Source: Allobosea lupini (GTDB taxonomy: Bacteria > Pseudomonadota > Alphaproteobacteria > Rhizobiales > Beijerinckiaceae). From it: a stretch of DNA of 64,000 bases. The stretch lies in assembly GCF_900109525.1 (NCBI RefSeq), contig NZ_FOAN01000003.1:558001-622000 (forward strand), read 5' to 3'. Of this stretch, positions 119 to 10,595 are shown in pieces; the stretch's first letter is position 1, and every line of letters starts with the position of its first letter. Below the pieces are notes generated by a model. That model worked only from the letters and a program-made list of their open reading frames with translations. It made no database searches and was not told where the DNA came from. Both the position numbers and the translations under genes were made by a program.

Positions 119-730
119 TCAGGCCGCGCCGGAGGCGGCGAGATTGCCCGGCAATCCGGTTCGGTGGGATCGCAGCCTGTACGCCAGCACCAGAAGCGTG
201 CCGCCCAGCACGAGCGCATGCGCGCCGGTCCAGAAGGTGAGCACCAATGCGCCGATGAACGGCGATATGACGAGGAGAACCCCGAGCACGATGCTGGCGA
301 TGCCGCCGATCACCAGCCAGACACGGCCATGGTCGATCTTGAGCCGGAAAGCCGAGATCAGCATGAGCGTGCCCGATATCAGCGCCCATGCCGCCATCAG
401 GAGGACGAAGGCCAGCACTGTGAGGCCGGGCCACAGCGCCGCGACGACGCCGGCGGCGATACCGAAGATGCCGCTCAGCAGCAGCCAGACCCAGCGCTCG
501 CCCTTTCGCGCTCCCCGCACCGACATGACGATCCCGAAGACGCCGTCGACGATGCTGAAGGCGGCGAAGACGAAGACCAGCGACAGCATCGTGACGACCG
601 GCATCGCAAAGGCGGTGATGCCGAACAGGATCGCGACCGCGCCGCGCAGCGCGACGGCCCACCAGTTATCGGCGAGCATGTCGTTCATCGCCTGGGTTTT
701 CGCGCCGTCATTCACAGGGAGATCCGTCAT
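119..730 (-). CDS. hdeD: HdeD-family (DUF308) membrane stress protein
   Basis: This 203-residue protein is almost entirely hydrophobic, with about six predicted membrane helices (roughly residues 24-44, 48-70, 80-99, 103-125, 137-157 and 160-184) and short polar loops. That layout and the internal two-fold repeat of GxxxxxFG-type helices match the HdeD/DUF308 family of inner-membrane proteins linked to acid resistance in enteric bacteria. The molecular function is not known. The start is supported by GGAGAG six bases before the ATG. An FNR/FixK-like box lies at 787-800 with a TAGGTT hexamer at 759-764, about 30 bp from the box centre. The redoxin fragment follows 22 bp downstream. Confidence 0.85.
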   Translation of the reverse strand: MTDLPVNDGAKTQAMNDMLADNWWAVALRGAVAILFGITAFAMPVVTMLSLVFVFAAFSIVDGVFGIVMSVRGARKGERWVWLLLSGIFGIAAGVVAALWPGLTVLAFVLLMAAWALISGTLMLISAFRLKIDHGRVWLVIGGIASIVLGVLLVISPFIGALVLTFWTGAHALVLGGTLLVLAYRLRSHRTGLPGNLAASGAA

Positions 731-786
731 CGTGCTCTCCGTTCAGATCCGTGGCCGAAACCTACTCCGCCAGGCCCGGTGGAACC

Positions 787-800
787 TTGATGGCCGTCAG
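787..800 (-). promoter_or_regulatory. FNR/FixK-like box upstream of hdeD (site A)
   Basis: Read toward hdeD the site is CTGA-CGGCCA-TCAA, preceded by AAA. It fits the 14-bp TTGA-N6-TCAA operator of the Crp/Fnr family except for the first base. Three more copies occur at 3671, 5221 and 9176, all in the same orientation relative to the minus strand. A TAGGTT hexamer at 759-764 gives the -41.5 spacing of a class II FNR-type promoter. The regulator is inferred to be the Crp/Fnr gene at 9311-9979. Confidence 0.6.
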
Positions 801-894
801 TTTTGCCGCAACGGCTCGACCTTTCGGATCGCCCGGGCGCCGCGCCGGGAAGGACGATCGGCTGAGCTCGGTCGCCCGCGCCGGTCCTCGGCAG

Positions 895-2595
895 TCAGGC
901 CGCAAGCCCGTTGACCTCGACGAGCTCCGCCCTGACCCCGTTCACGATGCGAGCTGCGTCGTCCTGCGACTTCCCGCACAGCAACAGCGCCCGGTCCGCA
1001 AGCGCGAGGCCGGCCGCGAGGTTTTCCGGAAAGACCGCGGTCGCCTCGAGGCGCGCGAAGTGCGCCATGTCGAGATCGTCGGCGGTCGACACCAGGGATG
1101 CCGGCCCTGGCTCGATCGCCCTGACCCGGTGCAGGATGCTTTCCACCGTGTTCAGATGATCGAAGGTGATCGCGACCAGAAGGGCCCGGTCCAGACCCGC
1201 CGCCTCGAGAATGCGGTGATGTCTCGCATCGCCGAAGACGACCTCGTGACCTTGGCGGCGAGCCGTCCGGAATCGGGGCAGATCCGTCTCGATGGCAATA
1301 TACGCAATCCCCGCGGCTTCCAGGACGGTCGCTACGAGCCGGCCCACGCGACCACAGCCACACAGGATGACGTGATCATGCAGGCTGCCGCTTTGCATGC
1401 GAATCGATGCCTCTGTGGCGGCGATGCGACGTTCGCGACGGTCGAATAGCCATGCGGCCCAATGGTTGCGCTGGATCAGGAGGGGGGCGAACCCCATCGT
1501 CAGGGCAAGCGCGATCAGCGCCGGTTGGCCCAGCGCCGCCGGCACCAGGCCGGACTGGAGGGCGAGCGATGTCAGCAGCAGCCCGAACTCGCCGCCATGT
1601 GCCACGATAACGGCGGTCCGCGCGGAGGCCTCACGTGGCGCCCCGGCAATCAGGCCGGTCACGAAGGCCACGAGCGGCTTCGCCAGAACGAGCACGAGCA
1701 GCCAGACAACGATCATGCCGGGAAAGCTCGCTGCAGCCGACGTGTCGATGCCCATGCCAACCGTGATGAAGAAGAGGCCTACGAGCACGTCACGGAATGG
1801 CCGGATGTCTTCCTCGACCCGATGACGGAATTCGCTCTCGCCGATGACCATGCCCGCGACGAAGGCTCCGATCGGCGCAGGCAGCCCCGCCAGATGGACG
1901 ACATAGGCGGTGCCAAGTGCGGTCATCAGCGCCCACAGCAGGAAGAGGTCGGCGGAGCGCGACTTGAGCACCCAAGAGAAGCCGAGACGGATCAGAGGCC
2001 GCGCGATCACGGCGGCGGCGACGAGAGCCCCGGTCGCAACCGCGATCTGCTTGAGAATCTCCATCGGCGCCAGCGATCCGTTCTGGGCCCAGGCGCCGAC
2101 CAGAATGATGAGAGGCAGCGTCGCCAGATCTTGGAATAGCAGTATCCCGAGCGCGAGCCGTCCGTGGCGGCTGCTGATTTCGCCCTGCTCGGCGAGTTGC
2201 TTCAGCGTGACGGCGGTCGACGACATGGCGATGGCGCCGCCCATGATGACGGCCGGCTGCACCGGCACGCCCGTCAGTACAAGCCCCGCCGTCACAAGCG
2301 TCATCATGAGGCCGACATGCACGCTGCCCGCGACGAGCACGTCCCGCCCCGCGCGCAGAATTGTCGGCATCGAGAATTCGAGCCCGACCATGAACATGAG
2401 GAAGATCAGGCCGAGCTCCGCAAGAAACTTCGTGTGCTCGGCATTGTCGATCAGGTTGAGCGCATGCGGCCCGAGCACCGCGCCCACGACGAGGTAGCCC
2501 ATCACCGCGGGCATTCGCAGCATGGTGAGAAGCCCGACCGCGAGGCCCGACGCGGCGAGGAGAATGAGTGTGCGGGCCAGGAGATCGTCCATCAT
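895..2595 (-). CDS. CPA2-family (Kef-type) cation:proton antiporter with RCK domain
   Basis: The 566-residue protein has an N-terminal sodium/hydrogen exchanger domain with about 12 membrane helices (residues about 5-380) and a C-terminal TrkA-N/RCK nucleotide-binding domain from about residue 405, with the dinucleotide motif GCGRVG near 412-417. This is the KefB/KefC architecture, which exports potassium in exchange for protons and in enteric bacteria is gated by glutathione adducts. No KefF/KefG-type ancillary oxidoreductase gene is adjacent. Its ATG overlaps the stop of the small upstream gene (ATGA at 2592-2595), indicating translational coupling. KefB-type genes also occur with hdeD and hsp20 in transmissible stress-tolerance loci. 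Confidence 0.9.
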   Translation of the reverse strand: MMDDLLARTLILLAASGLAVGLLTMLRMPAVMGYLVVGAVLGPHALNLIDNAEHTKFLAELGLIFLMFMVGLEFSMPTILRAGRDVLVAGSVHVGLMMTLVTAGLVLTGVPVQPAVIMGGAIAMSSTAVTLKQLAEQGEISSRHGRLALGILLFQDLATLPLIILVGAWAQNGSLAPMEILKQIAVATGALVAAAVIARPLIRLGFSWVLKSRSADLFLLWALMTALGTAYVVHLAGLPAPIGAFVAGMVIGESEFRHRVEEDIRPFRDVLVGLFFITVGMGIDTSAAASFPGMIVVWLLVLVLAKPLVAFVTGLIAGAPREASARTAVIVAHGGEFGLLLTSLALQSGLVPAALGQPALIALALTMGFAPLLIQRNHWAAWLFDRRERRIAATEASIRMQSGSLHDHVILCGCGRVGRLVATVLEAAGIAYIAIETDLPRFRTARRQGHEVVFGDARHHRILEAAGLDRALLVAITFDHLNTVESILHRVRAIEPGPASLVSTADDLDMAHFARLEATAVFPENLAAGLALADRALLLCGKSQDDAARIVNGVRAELVEVNGLAA

Positions 2596-2852
2596 GCCCT
2601 CGACGATCCGCGACGGACCTGTGTCATCACGGCAGGATCAGCTGGAGACGTTTCGTCAGCCTGGCGACGGGTCTCGTCGACACCAGGCGCCGTGGCAGTG
2701 TCCGACGGCTGCGCTGTCGAGCGGCGGCCGACATGCAAGGGCGCCCACGAAGGCGGGTCGCTCGCAGGAAACGAGTCCAGACTGGCTTGCTCGACCGGGT
2801 CGGGACCTACGGTCTCGGGCAGATCAGGTTTGCGCGCCCACGTGTGGTTCAC
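2592..2852 (-). CDS. Small conserved protein with SFPASDPPSW motif
   Basis: I choose the GTG at 2852 because AGAGGAG lies seven bases upstream; an ATG at 2894 has no ribosome-binding site and falls inside a hairpin. The 86-residue product contains DPVEQASLDSFPASDPPSW. This motif recurs, from my memory of the clade, in short uncharacterised proteins of Rhizobiales stress loci. Apart from the motif the protein is polar and looks disordered, with no signal peptide or membrane helix. Its stop overlaps the antiporter start by four bases, so translation is probably coupled. I assign no function. Confidence 0.55.
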   Translation of the reverse strand: MNHTWARKPDLPETVGPDPVEQASLDSFPASDPPSWAPLHVGRRSTAQPSDTATAPGVDETRRQADETSPADPAVMTQVRRGSSRA

Positions 2853-2875
2853 GTCGAAAGCTCCTCTGCGACAGT

Positions 2876-2908
2876 GACCGGCCGGACCGGCCAAAGGTCC
2901 GGCTGGTC
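2876..2908 (-). terminator. Strong hairpin between the BON gene and the antiporter operon
   Basis: A 13-bp stem with one G-T pair (GACCGGCCGGACC against GGTCCGGCTGGTC) encloses a 7-base loop. It sits 15 bp past the BON stop and 23 bp before the GTG of the small gene. There is no T-tract after it, so it may be a terminator of reduced strength, a processing signal or an RNA stabiliser. Confidence 0.4.
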
Positions 2909-2922
2909 CCTCCTCTGCTGCA

Positions 2923-3576
2923 TCACGGAGAAATGATGATGCGGTTCTCGACCTTGGTGACGCCCGGCGCCCGCCAGGCTGCGCGCTCGGCCTCCTGGCG
3001 CTCCGCCCAGGACCGGACCGTTCCCGAGAGGGTCACGACCCCGCCGTCGGTGGCGACCGTCACGCGCTTCGCGTCCACCTCCGCCATCCGCGTCAACGCC
3101 TCCTCGATCTTGGACTTGATCTCCGAAGGCGCGATGCGTGGCTTGAGCGTCACCAGGTTCGATATGCCCTTGACGCTCCTGACCTTTCGCGCCGCCGCCT
3201 CCGCGCGGTTGCGCTGATACTCCCACTCGGCCGTGCCCTCGAGGGTCACCCAGCCGCTCTTGACCACGACCTTGATGTTCTCGTGGGAATAGGGAAGCTC
3301 GTTCTTGATCGCCTCGACGACGGCGCGGGCGACTTCGGGATCGGGCTTTTCGTGGACCAGCGGGAGACGGACCTCGATGTCGTTGGCGATGCCGAGCACT
3401 CCCTTGACCCGCTTCGCCGCCTTCTCGGCCTCATACTTCTGGCTGTAGCTGCGGACGAAGCCGCTCAGCGTGACGACCCCATCCTTGGCCGCGACGCCGA
3501 TGTCGGAAGCGTCGATGTCCGGATCCCATTTCAGTTCGCTTTCCACGTCGCGCTTGATGTCGCTGTCTGCTCTCAT
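2923..3576 (-). CDS. Triple BON-domain protein without signal peptide
   Basis: The start at 3576 is supported by GGAGGATT before the ATG; the longer open frame upstream covers the promoter. The 217 residues form three consecutive BON domains (about 4-70, 78-146 and 149-217), each with the GVVTLSG or GWVTLEG strand followed by an A-x-x-A-x-x-V-x-G-V helix. BON domains bind phospholipid in OsmY-like envelope proteins. This protein begins [10 protein letters not shown] and lacks a signal sequence, so it is predicted to be cytoplasmic, which is unusual for the domain. An FNR-like box lies at 3671-3684 with a TAGCCT hexamer about 30 bp downstream. Confidence 0.85.
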
Positions 3577-3670
3577 GATGCAATCCTCCGTGGCGGGTGA
3601 TTGGCCTGGGCTGGGCGAAGACATCCCCGCACAGCGATGGGAGGCTAGCGTCTGCGCACCGCCGCCAGCC

Positions 3671-3684
3671 TTGACGGCCATCAG
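3671..3684 (-). promoter_or_regulatory. FNR/FixK-like box upstream of the BON gene (site B)
   Basis: Read on the minus strand it is CTGA-TGGCCG-TCAA, preceded by AAA, nearly identical to sites A, C and D. A TAGCCT hexamer at 3642-3647 is placed like a -10 element for class II activation. The box lies between the end of the hsp20 operon and the BON gene, so it belongs to the latter. Confidence 0.6.
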
Positions 3685-3726
3685 TTTTGGGGCAGGGCGT
3701 GTCCTCCCCGTCCGCCGGTGCTGCAC

Positions 3727-3760
3727 AAGAAAAGTCCGCAACCGTCGGGCGGTCGCGGAC
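3727..3760 (-). terminator. Intrinsic terminator of the hsp20 operon
   Basis: On the minus strand a 10-bp stem (GTCCGCGACC with GGTTGCGGAC, one wobble pair) encloses a 7-base loop and is followed directly by TTTTCTT. It lies 35 bp beyond the stop of the last hsp20 gene. Confidence 0.75.
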
Positions 3761-3794
3761 AGTGAGGCGGGTCGCGGGGCAATGGGGAGGGAGG

Positions 3795-4298
3795 TCAACC
3801 CGCCTGGACTGGAATGCGTTTCGTTTCGGCCTGCGCCTCTGCGGACTTCGGAATCACGATCGTCAGCACGCCGTTGTCGAAGCTGGCCTTGGCGGCGCCG
3901 GCGTCGATACCCGCCGGCAGGGGAACGATCCGCTCGATGGCGCCGTAAACCCGCTCCCTGACGAGAACGCCGCTTTCCTCGGCTTCACGCTCGGACTTCT
4001 TCTCGCCGCGGATCGTCAACTGGCCATTGCCGACCGACAGCTCGACATCCGTGTCGCTCAAGCCGGGCAGCTCCGCGGTGACCGTGATCTCTTTGCCGTT
4101 GTCGGCGACATCAACGCTGACAGGCTGCGTTGGTGCCAAGGCGCCGACCGGGGCGAACGGGCTCAGCACCATGCGCCAGAACCGGTCGAAGGCGCGGTCG
4201 ACGTCGAGCTGCAGTGCACGGACGGGGTCCGTCGCGTCGGTTCCGGCGGCGACGTGGCGGCCCGCGCCACGCCATGGGACGAGGTCCGTGATCTTCAT
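3795..4298 (-). CDS. Hsp20/alpha-crystallin small heat-shock protein (third gene of operon)
   Basis: The start at 4298 ([11 protein letters not shown]) is chosen for the GGGAG nine bases upstream. The 167-residue product has a variable N-terminal arm, an alpha-crystallin domain at about residues 58-155, and the conserved end A-x-F-x-N-GVLTI-x-I-PK. A C-terminal R-I-P-V stands in for the I-x-I oligomerisation motif. Small heat-shock proteins hold unfolding proteins for refolding by DnaK. This is the last of three hsp20 genes spaced 13 bp apart and is followed by a clear terminator. Confidence 0.92.
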
Positions 4299-4311
4299 CG
4301 GGCTTGCTCCC

Positions 4312-4695
4312 TCAGTCGGCTTTGACATTGATCTTGGCGGCTGGGGACGGCGCGGCCTTCGGAAGGGTCAACCGGAGCACGCCATCCTTCAGCACCGCCT
4401 CGATCCTCCCGACGTCGATCGGCTCGGAGACGGTAAAGCTGCGCTCGTAACTGCCGTCCCGATACTCGGCGTGGACCAGGGCGTAGCCGTCCGGCCCGCT
4501 CGATTGGGATCGGGCCGAAATCCGCAGGACGCGATTATCGAGGGTGACGTCGAGGGTGTCGGGATCCGCGCCCGGCATGTCGAGGACCATCTGGACGCCG
4601 GCCGTGGTCTCGACGATGTCTGTCGGCGGGGTGAAAGCAGGCTCGCTGCGCGTGGCTTCGGCCGGTTGGAGGCCATTGGGCTGCTGGTCGCTCAT
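4312..4695 (-). CDS. Hsp20/alpha-crystallin small heat-shock protein (second gene of operon)
   Basis: The start at 4695 (MSDQQPNG) follows a GAGGA and lies 13 bp after the previous stop; the longer frame overlaps the upstream hsp20. The 127-residue protein is short for the family, with a brief N-terminal arm and an alpha-crystallin domain at about 35-120 ending in LKDGVLRLTLPK. There is no obvious C-terminal I-x-I, which suggests it joins hetero-oligomers with its neighbours. That is an inference from sequence. Confidence 0.9.
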   Translation of the reverse strand: MSDQQPNGLQPAEATRSEPAFTPPTDIVETTAGVQMVLDMPGADPDTLDVTLDNRVLRISARSQSSGPDGYALVHAEYRDGSYERSFTVSEPIDVGRIEAVLKDGVLRLTLPKAAPSPAAKINVKAD

Positions 4696-4708
4696 GGCGG
4701 CTTCGTCC

Positions 4709-5149
4709 TCAGATGCGGCTGACGGTGATCTTGTGCGGCTTGTCCGCCTCGGGTCTGGGCAGATCGAGCCGCAGCACACCGTTCCGGAATGTTGCCTTGA
4801 CGCGGTCCCCGTCGACGCGGAAAGGCAGGACGAGATTGCGGGCGAAAGCCCCGGTGATGCGTTCCTGGCGGTGGACGACCGCGTCGTCCGCCGGCGGCTG
4901 GGCCGTGCGGCGGCCGCGCAGCGTCACCGTGTTCTGATGGACGGCGATATCGAGTTCCTCGGGCACAACGCCGGGAATCTCGGCCGTGACCACGGCGCCG
5001 TCGCTTCCGGCCCAAACGTTCATCGGCGGAAATTCGGGAGGCGCGGCGACACGGAGATTGTCGAAAAGCCGGCTCATATCCCTCTGGGCGAAGCGCATCT
5101 GGCGTACCGGGTCAAACCCGCGCCCCGTATTGTCGAGATTGTGCAGCAT
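4709..5149 (-). CDS. Hsp20/alpha-crystallin small heat-shock protein (first gene of operon)
   Basis: I choose the ATG at 5149 (MLHNLDNTGRG) because AGAAGGA precedes it and the upstream region holds the promoter. The 146-residue protein has an alpha-crystallin domain at about 45-140, with FRNGVLRLDLPRPE near its end. It heads the three-gene hsp20 operon, whose predicted operator is the FNR-like box at 5221-5234, about 78 bp upstream. The three paralogues differ substantially in sequence, so they are old duplicates or separately acquired. Confidence 0.9.
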   Translation of the reverse strand: MLHNLDNTGRGFDPVRQMRFAQRDMSRLFDNLRVAAPPEFPPMNVWAGSDGAVVTAEIPGVVPEELDIAVHQNTVTLRGRRTAQPPADDAVVHRQERITGAFARNLVLPFRVDGDRVKATFRNGVLRLDLPRPEADKPHKITVSRI

Positions 5150-5220
5150 GCCGATCGTCCTTCTGCGCGCGTGAGACGCCGATGTCCCGGACACCGTGCC
5201 TCGGCTGGACGCGGGCGGCA

Positions 5221-5234
5221 TTGATGACCGTCAG
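5221..5234. promoter_or_regulatory. FNR/FixK-like box between the hsp20 operon and cbpA (site C)
   Basis: On the minus strand it reads CTGA-CGGTCA-TCAA after AAA, in the same orientation toward the hsp20 operon as the other sites toward their genes. It can also serve cbpA on the plus strand: a TAGGTC hexamer at 5257-5262 stands 30 bp from the box centre, the class II distance. No convincing -10 hexamer is visible in the hsp20 direction. Confidence 0.6.
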
Positions 5235-5339
5235 TTTGGGAGCACTGAATTCCGGCTAGGTCTTGCCAGCATCCCGACGCACGCCGCCAACGGCGATCAT
5301 CACGCCGGGGCCGCGCCCGCGAAGGACAGGTCCGCGATC

Positions 5340-6251
5340 ATGCCGACGAGCAGCGGCGATCCCTATGAGACCCTCGGCGTCAAACGCGACGCCTCGCAGA
5401 GCGATATCCAGGCTGCCTATCGCCGGAGGGCCAAGAAGCTGCACCCGGACCTCAATCCCGGAAACAAGCAGGCCGAGCAGGACTTCAAGGCCCTGTCGGC
5501 GGCCTACGAGATTCTGCGCGACGAGGACAAGCGCGGGCGCTTCGATCGCGGCGAAATCGAAGCGACGGGAGCCGAAAAGGCCGAACGACGCTACTATCGC
5601 GACTTTGCCGGCGCGGATGCGGGCGCAGGGTCCTATGGCGAAGGCTTCGCGGATTTCGGCGGCGACGACCTCTTTGCCGAGTTCTTCTCGCGCCAGAGGA
5701 GTGGACCGTTCGGCAAGCGCGGCGGCGACATCCGCTATTCCATGGAGATCGATTTCCTTGAGGCGGTCAATGGCGGCACGCATCAGGTGACGCTGCCCGG
5801 AGGCCAGACGCTGGACGTCAGGATCCCACCCGGTGCGCGCGATGGGCAGACCCTTCGGCTGCGGGGCAAGGGCAGCGCCGGCGACGTCGGAGTGAAAGCC
5901 GGTGACGCGCTGATCGAGCTCCATGTGCGCGCCCATCCCTTCTATCGGCGCGAGGGCGACGACATCCGGCTTGATCTCCCGATCTCGCTCCGCGAGGCCG
6001 TGCTCGGCGGCAAGGTCAAGGTGCCGACGCCGGCAGGCACGGTAGCCGTATCCGTGCCGATGAATTCATCCAGCGGGCGCACGCTGCGGCTGAAGGGACA
6101 GGGTGTCGCCCGGCGGGACGGGAGCCGGGGCGACGTCTACGCAACACTCAAGATCGTCCTTCCGGAACAGCAGGATCCCGAGCTGAAGGCATTCGTCGTT
6201 GGCTGGTCAGCCGGCAAGGACTTCAATCCGCGGCAGGCAATGGGGGTCTAG
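5340..6251 (+). CDS. cbpA: CbpA-type DnaJ co-chaperone
   Basis: The start at 5340 (MPTSSGDPYETLGV) is preceded by AAGGACAGG. The 303-residue protein has a J domain at about residues 8-70 with the HPD motif at 35-37, which stimulates DnaK ATPase. A glycine-rich linker and two C-terminal client-binding domains (about 120-295) follow. The CxxCxGxG zinc finger of classical DnaJ is absent, which places it in the CbpA class. The cbpM gene starts at the very next base, and grpE and dnaK face it from the other strand, so this is a compact second chaperone set. Confidence 0.93.
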   Translation: MPTSSGDPYETLGVKRDASQSDIQAAYRRRAKKLHPDLNPGNKQAEQDFKALSAAYEILRDEDKRGRFDRGEIEATGAEKAERRYYRDFAGADAGAGSYGEGFADFGGDDLFAEFFSRQRSGPFGKRGGDIRYSMEIDFLEAVNGGTHQVTLPGGQTLDVRIPPGARDGQTLRLRGKGSAGDVGVKAGDALIELHVRAHPFYRREGDDIRLDLPISLREAVLGGKVKVPTPAGTVAVSVPMNSSSGRTLRLKGQGVARRDGSRGDVYATLKIVLPEQQDPELKAFVVGWSAGKDFNPRQAMGV

Positions 6252-6605
6252 ATGCTCGATCACTTCGAACCCAAGAGACATCGTCCTGTCGACGATGACA
6301 CGCTGCAGGCCTTCGTCGACAGGGGCTGGATCTTGCCGCCCGTTCGCGAAGGTCAGCGCGTGATCCGCGACGTCGATGTCGCGCGTGCGGCCCTGATCGT
6401 GGATCTGACCGATGGGATGGGTCTGAACGAGGAAGGCGTCGATCTGGTGCTGGATCTGATCGACCAGCTCTATGGCCTGCGTTCCGCCCTCGGCCATCTG
6501 ATCGATACGCTGGCGGTGCAGCCTGATGGCGTTCGGGCTCGCCTCGTGAGCGACCCGAGGCGGCTTTACACGCTGAGCTACCGCCGGCCCCCGGCTGTCC
6601 GCTGA
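6252..6605 (+). CDS. cbpM: CbpM-like chaperone modulator
   Basis: The 117-residue protein begins immediately after the cbpA stop codon with no gap. It resembles the MerR-like CbpM family, which binds the J domain of CbpA and restrains it. Visible features are an N-terminal helical part with the sequence AFVDRGWILPP, followed by VDVARAALIVDLT and a C-terminal helix pair LDLIDQLYGLRSAL. The position behind cbpA matches the enteric cbpAM operon. The stop lies 3 bp from the end of convergent grpE. Confidence 0.85.
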   Translation: MLDHFEPKRHRPVDDDTLQAFVDRGWILPPVREGQRVIRDVDVARAALIVDLTDGMGLNEEGVDLVLDLIDQLYGLRSALGHLIDTLAVQPDGVRARLVSDPRRLYTLSYRRPPAVR

Positions 6606-6608
6606 CTC

Positions 6609-7176
6609 CTAGCCGGCGGCCGGGCCGCCATCGTGCGGTTCGCGAACCGCCACGCCAACCATCGCCGGGCGAAGCACCCGGTCGTGAAGCGTATAGCCTG
6701 GCTGCAGGATCTCGACGACGGTGCCGTCCGCCGCTGTCTCGTCCGGTCGCTGGAAAATGGCGTGATGGATATGCGGATCGAAGGCCGCGCCGAGCGGATC
6801 GATGCGTCGCATGCCATGCCGCGCCAGCGTCGCCAGCAGATTGCTTTCGGTGGTCTCGACACCTTTCAGCAGCGGCCCGATCGACGCGTGAGCCGAGTCC
6901 CCCGTGGGCACGCTCTCGATCGCGCGGCGCAGATTGTCGAGCGTGTCCAGAAGGTCGCCGACCAGTTGCGAGGCCGCGAACTTGACGGCCTCCTCGCGCT
7001 GGCGCTGCATCTGCTGGCGGATGTTCTGCTGCTCGGCCAGAGCACGCAGCAGCTTGGTCTTCGCATCGGCGAGCTCGAACTCGAGCGCCGCCTGCGAGGC
7101 CGGGGCGGCAGATTGCGCGGAGGGCGTGTCCGGTGACTGCGGCATCGGCTCCGTAGTTTTCTGTCCGTGGGAAGCC

Positions 7177-7196
<20 letters not shown>
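6609..7196 (-). CDS. grpE: GrpE nucleotide exchange factor
   Basis: The 195-residue protein has an N-terminal coiled coil (about residues 40-100, with [26 protein letters not shown] split across it) and a C-terminal beta domain. The latter carries the family signature around [30 protein letters not shown] and VAV. GrpE releases ADP from DnaK. The first ATG overlaps the dnaK stop and follows AGGAGGTG, though the spacing of 12 is long; a second ATG at 7184 is possible. Placing grpE downstream of dnaK, without hrcA, differs from the usual heat-shock locus. Confidence 0.95.
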
Positions 7197-9087
<1,891 letters not shown>

Positions 9088-9175
9088 CTTCCATCTCCAT
9101 CGAAATTGGGCGCCTGATGCGGCCGGTGCGACTGCGCCCGCATCCGAAGCCTTGCTGATGGCTAGGCCGCCGGCC

Positions 9176-9189
9176 TTGACGGTCGTCAG
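9176..9189 (-). promoter_or_regulatory. FNR/FixK-like box upstream of dnaK (site D)
   Basis: On the minus strand it reads CTGA-CGACCG-TCAA, again preceded by AAA and in the same orientation as sites A to C. It stands about 95 bp before the dnaK start. A CTAGCCA element follows, but closer to the box than at sites A and B, so the exact promoter is uncertain. Confidence 0.6.
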
Positions 9190-9310
9190 TTTCAAGCCTG
9201 TCGACGATTTTGCGCTGCGACGGCGGCTCGGCGTCGAGCCGGGTTTTCTCGAGGAGAAAGGAGAGGCGACGTTACGGATGGCAGGTAGTTCGGCGCCGCG
9301 TCATCCGCCC

Positions 9311-9979
9311 TCAGCCATTTTGGCCGCCTCGCCTCCGGGTGATCCTGATGCGGCGCGGGCCCTCCAGCGAGATGACGCCGCGCGCCTGCAGATCGGTAAT
9401 GGCGCGGCAGACCGTTTCGGGCGAGATACCCAGCATGTCGGCGATGTCGTAGCGCGAGATCGGCAGCGCCATGCCCTCGTCCTTGTCGGCCGAAAGCCTC
9501 CGGTGAAAGTAGAGCAGGAATTCCCGGACCTTTTCCTGGGCCGTCATCGTGCCGATCACCAGGAGCTGCTGCTGCAGCCGTTCCAATGCCTCGAGGATCT
9601 GCCTTCTGATTTCGAGGGCGGTCTCGGAATCTTCCCTGGCCAGCGCCTCGACACGCTGGCGCGGGTAGCAGGCGATCACTGTCCCTTCAGTCACGGCCTG
9701 GACGGCAAACCGATGGTGCAGGCGGGAGGTGAAGCCGAACAGATCTCCCGGCAGATAGATGTCGACCAGTTGCCTGCGCCCGTCGGCGCGCATCAGAAAT
9801 TTGCGCGCCGAGCCGGACATGACACGATACCAGGTGTCGCTGCGCTCCTCCTGGCCGTAGATGTCCTGCTCGCGATCGAAGCGACGCAGGTGCGCCAGCG
9901 ACCGCAGCCGTGTCGGCTCGGCGGTCGGCGCGCTTGGCAGGCGTTGCAGGGTCGCGGACGTCGCGGATGCGTCGAGCAT
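9311..9979 (-). CDS. Crp/Fnr-family regulator, FixK-like, no iron-sulphur cysteines
   Basis: I choose the ATG at 9979 (MLDASATSATL) because GGGGAGG precedes it; a start at 10021 lacks such a site. The 222-residue protein has a cyclic-nucleotide-binding fold (about 28-140), a dimer helix, and a winged helix with DIADMLGISPETVCRAITDLQ at 178-198. Glu188 and Arg192 match the residues that read TTGA in FNR; the serine between them is Cys191 here. The N-terminal cysteine cluster of oxygen-sensing FNR is missing, so it resembles FixK or Dnr types. It is the probable regulator of the four boxes at 787, 3671, 5221 and 9176. Confidence 0.88.
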   Translation of the reverse strand: MLDASATSATLQRLPSAPTAEPTRLRSLAHLRRFDREQDIYGQEERSDTWYRVMSGSARKFLMRADGRRQLVDIYLPGDLFGFTSRLHHRFAVQAVTEGTVIACYPRQRVEALAREDSETALEIRRQILEALERLQQQLLVIGTMTAQEKVREFLLYFHRRLSADKDEGMALPISRYDIADMLGISPETVCRAITDLQARGVISLEGPRRIRITRRRGGQNG

Positions 9980-10310
9980 GGTGGCCTCCCCATCCTCCGC
10001 CAGCGCGCGAAGGCTTGCCATGCACCATTCGTCAGCCTTCGTCGAAGGGGAATTTGGGGTCTGTCCGTATCGTAGAATCCCGCATCCCGCTGATCAGGGC
10101 GTCTCCCTTCGATATGGCTGGCGGTCATGGGGGTAAGACGCGCCTGGTCCTTCGCGGCTGTCACGACGACGCAAGCCTGTATCCACCCGGCCCCAGGCGG
10201 GAAAGGGCCATGCTTGGCCACCGTCAGTCGCCTCGGCACCAGGAGGTCAATGGGCTGATAGACGACGGCGCGCACGAACTCCGCGAGCGACCCACTAGCC
10301 CATACCTTCC
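9980..10310. other. 331-bp non-coding stretch upstream of the Crp/Fnr gene
   Basis: The open frames crossing this stretch show no family pattern and overlap the Crp/Fnr gene. It presumably holds the Crp/Fnr promoter. A degenerate box TTGG-N6-TCAG at 10214-10227 is the closest match to the island operator, too weak to call. I see no RNA gene or repeat in it. Confidence 0.4.
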
Positions 10311-10439
10311 CTAGGGACGAAAGTCAGGCGCACGTCCGCTGAACGTTGTGCGGCCCATGACCGCGTCCACAAGGTCCTTGGGGACGCGTTTGCGGTGGTA
10401 GTAGACCCGGGTCTTCGGATGTTTCCAAGGATTGGCCAC
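10311..10439 (-). pseudogene. Remnant of a phage-type integrase (DUF6538-like N terminus)
   Basis: The frame reads VANPWKHPKTRVYYHRKRVP, then KDLVDAVMGRTTFSG, and stops about 42 codons in. The string P-K-T-x-V-Y-Y-x-R-K-R-V-P-K-D-L-x-x-x-x-G is the start of many phage tyrosine recombinases that carry the DUF6538 arm-binding domain. The rest of the enzyme, including the catalytic R-H-R-Y residues, is absent. It lies about 80 bp from the 3' end of tRNA-Thr on the same strand, where an integrase gene would be expected beside an attachment site. I take it as the trace of a lost or decayed element. Confidence 0.6.
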
Positions 10440-10490
10440 GCAGAGTACCAAGTGTACCACTCGGTGGTCGCCAAACCCTTGCTGGTGCAG

Positions 10491-10510
10491 CCTTATTCCG
10501 CAAAATAAGG
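10491..10510 (-). terminator. Hairpin downstream of tRNA-Thr
   Basis: A perfect 7-bp stem CCTTATT / AATAAGG with a 6-base loop begins 11 bp past the tRNA 3' end. There is no T-run after it on the minus strand. It may be a weak terminator or part of an old attachment site. Confidence 0.4.
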
Positions 10511-10520
10511 GGGGTGGGGC

Positions 10521-10595
10521 TGGTGCTGCGAGAGAGGATTGAACTCTCGACCTCTCCATTACCAATGGAGTGCTCTACCACTGAGCTACCGCAGC
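10521..10595 (-). tRNA. tRNA-Thr (anticodon GGT)
   Basis: The minus strand folds as a complete tRNA: acceptor stem GCTGCGG with TCGCAGC (one G-T pair), D arm with AGCTCAGTGGTAGAGC, anticodon stem CTCCA-TTGGTAA-TGGAG with anticodon GGT, TPsiC arm GAGAG-TTCAATC-CTCTC, discriminator A and encoded CCA. It decodes ACC and ACT. The integrase remnant downstream suggests that this gene once served as an attachment site. Confidence 0.97.

Follow-up and report, generated by a model that had tools for sequence, protein, structure and literature searches.

Control of protein-folding genes by regulators of the FNR type is not new, since several cases involving FixK2, FnrN and predicted FixK regulons are known. 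In Bradyrhizobium diazoefficiens, groEL5, hspC2, a dnaJ and a universal stress protein gene possess FixK2 boxes or belong to operons led by such boxes; FixLJ stands above FixK2 in this organism, and FixK2 loses its activity when Cys183, close to the DNA, is oxidised (PMC9104804). In Rhizobium leguminosarum, microaerobic induction was shown for RLV_1399, a small heat-shock protein gene controlled by FnrN (PMC11784457). Predicted FixK regulons also include an Hsp20 (PMC2908626). The present analysis concerns a stretch of 64,000 nucleotides from Allobosea lupini (contig NZ_FOAN01000003.1, positions 558,001 to 622,000; hereafter the window). Its left end (119-10021) is occupied by an island of stress-related genes, from hdeD through a gene of the Crp/Fnr family. 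As judged from sequence patterns, this island quite probably carries its own FixK-like activator, which would drive the chaperone promoters in a class II manner.

A sequence-only reading of the window had pointed to four sites of the form AAACTGA-N6-TCAA in a common orientation. All four are present, agree exactly with this form and lie on the minus strand (operators A to D in Table 1). With up to one mismatch allowed, the window contains four matches against 0.14 expected, and none of 100 dinucleotide shuffles reached this number. By their sequence, the sites are FNR/FixK-type palindromes. All four have CTGA instead of TTGA on one side, and their middle four bases are GC-rich (GGCC, GGCC, GGTC, and GACC). 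Compared with the FixK/FnrN operator TTGA-N6-TCAA, the core TGA-N6-TCA is kept, but this core was fixed by the search pattern.

A genome-wide scan, proposed beforehand as a check, covered 6.13 Mb in 24 contigs and revealed that the motif is not evenly spread but nearly private to the island. Namely, TTGAYGGYCRTCAGTTT gave four matches at up to one mismatch, every one of them being one of the four island sites. Five further matches, all outside the island, appeared at two mismatches, and 83 matches versus 22 for the reversed control were counted at up to three mismatches. The generalised pattern AAANTGAYNNNNRTCAN (AAANTGAY-N4-RTCAN) had eight matches in the genome without mismatch, five of which fall in 10.2 kb (C11:557043-567192); its reversed control had no match in the genome. 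The fifth site, GTGACGGGTGTCAG, is located about 0.95 kb left of the window, ahead of a PRC-barrel gene, and has a counterpart ahead of the PRC-barrel gene in Rhizobium BK399 and Sinorhizobium fredii NGR234. The pattern was generalised only after the four window sites and those of the relatives were known, so that within this genome only the fifth site adds to the count.

Related gene sets accompanied by a homologous Crp/Fnr gene were found in Rhizobium BK399, S. fredii NGR234 and other alphaproteobacteria, with such operators ahead of several of the same genes. Of these, NGR234 is a widely used laboratory strain; its regulator gene is located on pNGR234b. The window-derived pattern had seven matches in BK399 against 0.84 expected, a number reached in none of 200 shuffles. 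Fifteen locus sets were examined for operators; two of them (G174 and G036) had no match upstream of a recognised gene and were dropped from the counts. In the remaining 13 loci, 49 operators lie upstream of recognised island genes at distances of up to 260 bp, compared with a summed expectation of about 1.3 (60 first-order Markov shuffles per locus). Chance repeats were dropped as an explanation, because match counts in the window, the genome and the 13 loci are far above expectation.

The operators occupy similar places in different loci. In those of the group referred to here as the CTGAC clade, and wherever the respective gene was detected, they lie 66-84 bp ahead of hspC (six loci), 82-98 bp ahead of dnaK (six loci), and 92-118 bp ahead of BON genes (seven of seven loci); some of these loci also have operators ahead of cbpA, hdeD and PRC genes. 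In the more distant loci, BON, cbpA, dnaK, hdeD, redoxin or PRC genes are preceded by operators, each in at least one locus. In BK399 and NGR234, an operator also lies ahead of the start of the regulator gene, at 88 and 100 bp, respectively. Further palindromes of the same kind were seen left of the regulator gene in the NGR234 locus (L069:14107, 14180, and 16853).

Among 31 operator pairs, the positions left free by the search are well conserved: identity is 77% for the four central bases and 85% for the AAA flank, while it is 42% at +8 to +28 and 30% in the outer flanks (-50 to -11 and +36 to +60). The six core bases were fixed by the search pattern, so their identity proves nothing. The near-identity of the repeats inside the window would also be seen if they were non-regulatory remnants of duplicated promoter DNA. 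This explanation is hardly credible: the surroundings of orthologous promoters have diverged, as the outer flanks show, yet operators recur at corresponding positions in distant loci. What the compared loci document is a set of operators that are conserved, regularly spaced and found in company with the regulator gene.

The predicted class II activation by the island regulator is consistent with the promoter geometry. Scoring of TATAAT-like hexamers in 55 site-gene pairs, with weights of our choice, revealed one narrow maximum, at 29 nt from the operator centre (z 5.4), the next-best distance being 30 nt (z 2.1). The operator centre would thus lie about 41 nt before the transcription start, the class II position at known CRP/FNR promoters. 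In the window, the TAG-start hexamers claimed at class II distance for sites A, B and, toward cbpA, C are all present. Operator C would serve both the cbpA and the hsp20 sides, with equally distant hexamers, of which the one for cbpA is better in this genome. Near the position of the hsp20-side CACGGT, the relatives have CACCTT, CACGAT or CATCAT; near that of the dnaK-side AAGGCT, they have CATAAT, CATACT, GATACT or AAGACT. The weakness of several hexamers in this genome, such as CACGGT and AAGGCT, and the variation of the operator-to-gene-start distance from 34 to 118 bp in CTGAC-clade loci would suit a repressor or a class I activator at these sites. We consider such a role of the island regulator quite unlikely, since the hexamer spacing is fixed to the operator and not to the gene, an arrangement that suits class II activation and would bring a repressor no evident advantage.

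The Crp/Fnr gene of the island had been taken for the sole one. Within the island, no second one was seen, but the genome as a whole gave 12 matches to the cyclic nucleotide monophosphate (cNMP)-binding domain, 11 of them above cut-off. One of the encoded proteins is FnrN-like, with an E-T-V-S-R helix and a Cys pattern. The sites could thus be part of a host FNR/FnrN oxygen regulon read by this protein, with the island regulator being secondary or silent, in the way that FnrN of R. leguminosarum drives its small heat-shock protein gene via TTGA-N6-TCAA boxes (PMC11784457). We regard this as improbable. The one-sided CTGA and the GC-rich middles set the window operators apart from TTGAT-N4-ATCAA, the AAA-flanked form hardly occurs outside the island, and the operators accompany the island regulator across families. 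Also, none was found near the shared genes in four control loci without a regulator match.

Five plasmid loci were first taken as possible controls. Two of them were excluded, namely those of Phenylobacterium, which has its own Crp/Fnr gene, and Sphingomonas koreensis, in which operators are present and two Crp/Fnr genes lie just beyond the stretch; Paraburkholderia phymatum was added. The resulting set (Mesorhizobium, two Paraburkholderia, and Bosea Tri-49) comprises loci with BON or hsp20 relatives and no regulator match at E 1e-3. Five pattern matches were detected in about 94 kb of these loci, none of them close to the BON or hsp20 genes in common. In the three loci with annotation, the pattern match falls inside a gene; the match in P. 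phymatum (L119:4042) has no gene context.

The presumed activator belongs to the Crp/Fnr superfamily, with matches to PF00027 (N-terminal cNMP-binding fold, 43.6 bits) and PF13545 (C-terminal Crp-type helix-turn-helix, 57.3 bits) both over cut-off. The nearest solved structure is that of FixK2 (E 2.8e-32), and the cut-off of the CRP family was not reached; cAMP-type control was dropped on these grounds. The best family match was to the FixK equivalog NF050806, at 125.5 bits against a cut-off of 300, and the FnrL family gave 93.9 bits against 300, so both scores remain below membership. In the recognition helix E-x-x-S-R of FNR, FixK and DNR, E and R are conserved in all and Ser is well conserved (PMC2908626). 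The island regulator has E-T-V-C-R, in which E and R are kept and the Ser corresponding to FNR Ser212 is replaced by Cys205; it falls outside the FixK/FNR/DNR DNA-recognition group as defined by this motif. At the same place, 42 regulator homologues have Cys (9) or Ser (33).

The oxygen or energy signal proposed for the island is not shown by the sequence. The regulator has just two cysteines in 236 amino acids, Cys118 and Cys205, and no FNR-type N-terminal cysteine cluster was found in it. Left of the window, on the strand opposite to the island block, lie genes for a histidine kinase and a response regulator of the FixL/FixJ type (L031:14993-17348; C11:553493-555848). The kinase scored 301.4 bits against the FixL cut-off of 850, with a match limited to the kinase core (residues 329-574), and the response regulator 218.2 bits against the FixJ cut-off of 255; both are below the equivalog level. 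A PAS match was located at residues 176-268 of the kinase, and its solved-structure matches, including FixL chimeras, cover the kinase half only. Because the sensor part does not match FixL, oxygen as the signal is a guess by family resemblance.

FixJ-like and FixL-like relatives adjoin the regulator gene in genomes G850 and G1343, and in pieces in G1370; they also do so in G036, which shows no island. A response-regulator match stands beside the regulator gene in G819 and in both Azospirillum loci, and a match to the front half of the kinase occurs near this gene in NGR234, G087, G518, G403 and G433. No full FixL/FixJ-like pair was found in the 40 kb read at NGR234. As to redox control, the presumed place of FixK2 Cys183 is occupied by Ser in the island regulator, as seen in an alignment with entry 4i2o. 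We take this entry to be the C183S form of FixK2, which gives the location of the Cys183 place. A thiol switch at Cys205 in the recognition helix is conceivable.

The first base of the half-site differs between groups of loci. It is C in 38 of 56 half-sites in seven CTGAC-clade loci but in only 2 of 42 half-sites from six others (Fisher p 6e-11, a value that overstates the contrast because sites and loci are related). When regrouped by the residue at the FNR Ser212 place, C occurs in 38 of 64 half-sites with Cys and in 2 of 34 with Ser. Cys alone does not predict base 1, because G1343 has Cys in the helix, yet T or A at base 1 of its operators, and the Phenylobacterium plasmid regulator (30% identical, P-E-T-L-C-R) stands beside TTGA operators. 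In the plasmids of S. koreensis and Sphingomonas sanxanigenens, one of two Crp/Fnr proteins has Thr (S-E-T-V-T-R), and C is the first base of 21 out of the 24 half-sites that precede annotated genes. These two plasmids are close kin, and the second Crp/Fnr gene could be the reader; the sphingomonad plasmids as a second CTGAC lineage are a lead only.

The stress islands of the Sphingomonas plasmids (L115, L118, and L120) have two adjacent Crp/Fnr-family genes, and CTGAC-N4-RTCAG occurs ahead of dnaK, usp, dps and BON genes. In the plasmid of Phenylobacterium zucineum (L113), a DnaK-GrpE-ClpB-YfdX-BON-DUF308 island includes a Crp/Fnr gene of its own, and palindromes of the TTGA type lie ahead of dnaK and between YfdX and BON. 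The sphingomonad and Phenylobacterium islands suggest repeated origin or spread of the regulator-plus-island arrangement.

Relatives of the regulator are sparse across the sampled genomes. At E 1e-45, they were detected in at least 4 of 397 genomes of the order and at least 3 of 385 of the class, own genome included; at E 1e-35, the own genome was alone among the best-scored candidates of the phylum draw (at least 1 of 398). In each genome, these three draws scored seven candidates at most, which makes the tallies minimum values. At the loose E of 1e-20, 78 of 199 genomes of the family pass, but more than 50% identity was recorded only for the own genome and G087. With G518, G433 or G850 as its centre, a draw returned that genome alone (1 of 28, 1 of 20, and 1 of 43, respectively), and the draw around G199 gave 2 of 103 genomes with a relative. 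The contig collection yielded regulators of a Bosea metagenome-assembled genome (93% identical) and of BK399 (78%), and the plasmid collection those of NGR234 (77%) and of three Azospirillum records (46-49%); Azospirillum record H4 and plasmid matches below 45% identity were left out of the locus reading. In the tree, 14 regulators from island loci fall in one 16-row clade (support 97/99), and eight CTGAC-clade regulators are grouped (100/98). A long branch, that of an FnrN-like row, meets the island clade. Outside this clade, on very long branches and with unsure placement, stand the regulators of Phenylobacterium and Sphingomonas.

From these patterns we infer binding, activation and a signal as follows. 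A dimer of the regulator would bind 14-bp YTGAY-N4-RTCAR operators flanked upstream by AAA. With the operator centre near -41, it would contact RNA polymerase beside the -10 element. The hdeD gene, the BON gene, the hsp20 operon, cbpA-cbpM, dnaK-grpE and the PRC-barrel gene left of the window would then be raised jointly. The regulator has no obvious sensor cofactor. Some upstream signal probably governs how much of it is present or how active it is; the FixL/FixJ-like pair may be involved, or Cys205 on the DNA-facing side may become oxidised.

Several points weigh against this model. It rests on sequence throughout, and the chromosomal FnrN-like regulator could also read the sites. No operator match was found upstream of the regulator gene in this genome, directly ahead of kefB in any locus examined, ahead of hdeD in G087, or ahead of dnaK in both Azospirillum loci. 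The Bosea metagenome-assembled genome has no sites in its contig (L032), which ends 241 bases past the regulator gene on the island side. The 16-row regulator clade also holds L036 and L056, and the 20 kb around L036 (G174) contain neither operators nor any island gene save a partial kinase match. The control loci share just part of the cargo, and regulators farther off in those genomes were not sought.

The genes of the island, its operators and the candidate -10 elements are listed in Table 1.

Table 1. Genes, operators and -10-like hexamers of the A. lupini island (positions in the window)
Feature	Position	Strand	Remarks
hdeD-like (DUF308) protein	119..730	-	domain search
-10-like TAGGTT	759..764	-	class II distance from operator A
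Operator A	787..803	-	AAA CTGACGGCCATCAA; ahead of hdeD, centre 64 bp from hdeD start
KefB-like cation:proton antiporter with TrkA_N domain	895..2595	-	no own operator seen
Triple BON-domain protein	2923..3576	-	best NCBIfam match OsmY, below cut-off
-10-like TAGCCT	3642..3647	-	class II distance from operator B
Operator B	3671..3687	-	AAA CTGATGGCCGTCAA; ahead of BON gene, centre ~104 bp from start
Hsp20 A	3795..4298	-	domain search
Hsp20 B	4312..4695	-	domain search
Hsp20 C, first gene of hsp20 operon	4709..5149	-	domain search
Weak -10-like CACGGT	5193..5198	-	toward hsp20 operon
Operator C	5221..5237	written minus	AAA CTGACGGTCATCAA; between divergent hsp20 operon (78 bp) and cbpA (112 bp)
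-10-like TAGGTC	5257..5262	+	toward cbpA, from operator C
CbpA-type DnaJ	5340..6251	+	domain search
CbpM-like modulator	6252..6605	+	MerR_2 27.3 bits, below 29-bit cut-off
GrpE	6609..7196	-	domain search
DnaK, second copy of the genome	7177..9087	-	comparison with other copy
Weak -10-like AAGGCT	9148..9153	-	dnaK side, operator D
Operator D	9176..9192	-	AAA CTGACGACCGTCAA; ahead of dnaK, centre 96 bp from start
FixK-like Crp/Fnr regulator, 236 aa	9311..10021	-	recognition helix S-P-E-T-V-C-R

The block extends left beyond the window with genes for a redoxin, a DsbA-like protein and the PRC-barrel protein. Right of the island, a tRNA-Thr(GGT) gene (10521-10595) stands beside a short open reading frame (ORF; stretch 10311-10595) with a weak DUF6538 match below cut-off; the ORF may be what is left of an integrase and mark where the island ends. 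Together they may represent the kind of edge expected for an inserted island. Left of the window, L031:17388-17945 is a 185-aa ORF without Pfam match; a relative with 75% identity lies at the island of NGR234. In BK399, just a short stretch of the island's antiporter gene (L033:15228-15440; residues 114-184) gives a match.

The island had been read as placing a protein-folding set under an energy or oxygen signal instead of sigma-32. This stands insofar as no RpoH-like site was found at the island promoters tested, but the dnaK concerned is only an extra copy. The consensus of sigma-32 promoters is CTTG-N16-19-CYHAT. This simple pattern occurred in none of five island promoter regions, the PRC promoter being outside the test, and hidden sigma-32 promoters in these regions were dropped from consideration. 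The pattern does occur about 310 bp ahead of the other dnaK copy (C11:383741), which is 71% identical to that of the island.

A broader interpretation, which we advance tentatively and regard as somewhat doubtful, is that mobile alphaproteobacterial stress islands repeatedly bear a private FixK-type regulator, which turns on the whole folding set as one unit, independent of the host sigma-32 and FNR networks. In at least two lineages, this clade and the sphingomonad plasmids, the operator would have drifted from TTGAY to CTGAC with Cys or Thr at the FNR Ser212 place, resulting in an insulated operator code, and Cys205 could be a thiol switch. If the activator model holds, a transferable chaperone block would carry its own on-switch, without the need to fit the heat-shock wiring of a new host, which would help to explain the spread of such blocks. 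The TTGAC, WTGAC and CTGAC forms would offer a natural series of FNR-type regulators and operators for the study of first-base reading.

Among described systems, the transmissible locus of stress tolerance (tLST), or locus of heat resistance, resembles the island as a mobile set with Hsp20, HdeD, KefB and thioredoxin genes but differs in having ClpG/ClpK, FtsH in many variants, and a MerR-like Orf1 (PMC8290217). Neither ClpG/ClpK nor FtsH was detected among the 10 + 8 island and flank proteins scanned, a set that does not cover every island ORF. The multiple promoters of the tLST are not fully explained, and no FNR-type operator is mentioned in the excerpted account (PMC8290217). By its description, the lxa locus of Burkholderia cenocepacia is likewise a stress locus, and one that is switched on at low oxygen; it differs in comprising six universal stress proteins together with metabolism and transport genes (PMC9104464). 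Searches of open-licence PubMed Central (PMC) papers returned, among the matches listed, no description of an island in which chaperone genes are combined with a FixK-type regulator and an operator set of their own. In a comparison of FnrN/FixK regulons (PMC4999443), heat shock, chaperone, universal stress and Hsp20 are absent from the main text.

The FixK2 regulon of B. diazoefficiens shares with the island a FixK-type Crp/Fnr protein and a 14-bp box ahead of chaperone genes, but there the chaperones are among about 970 genes, and the boxes are TTGA/C-N6-T/GCAA (PMC9104804). In A. lupini, the regulator gene lies in the island with its putative targets, these are DnaK-GrpE-CbpA, three Hsp20, BON and HdeD genes, and the first base of the half-site is often C. 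FnrN control of RLV_1399 in R. leguminosarum is similar in the FNR-type palindrome before an hsp20 gene and differs in concerning a single gene, with FnrN copies on different replicons and TTGA-N6-TCAA boxes (PMC11784457). Within the known theme of chaperones controlled by FixK2 and FnrN, what is new here is the private regulator and the half-site shifted toward CTGAC.

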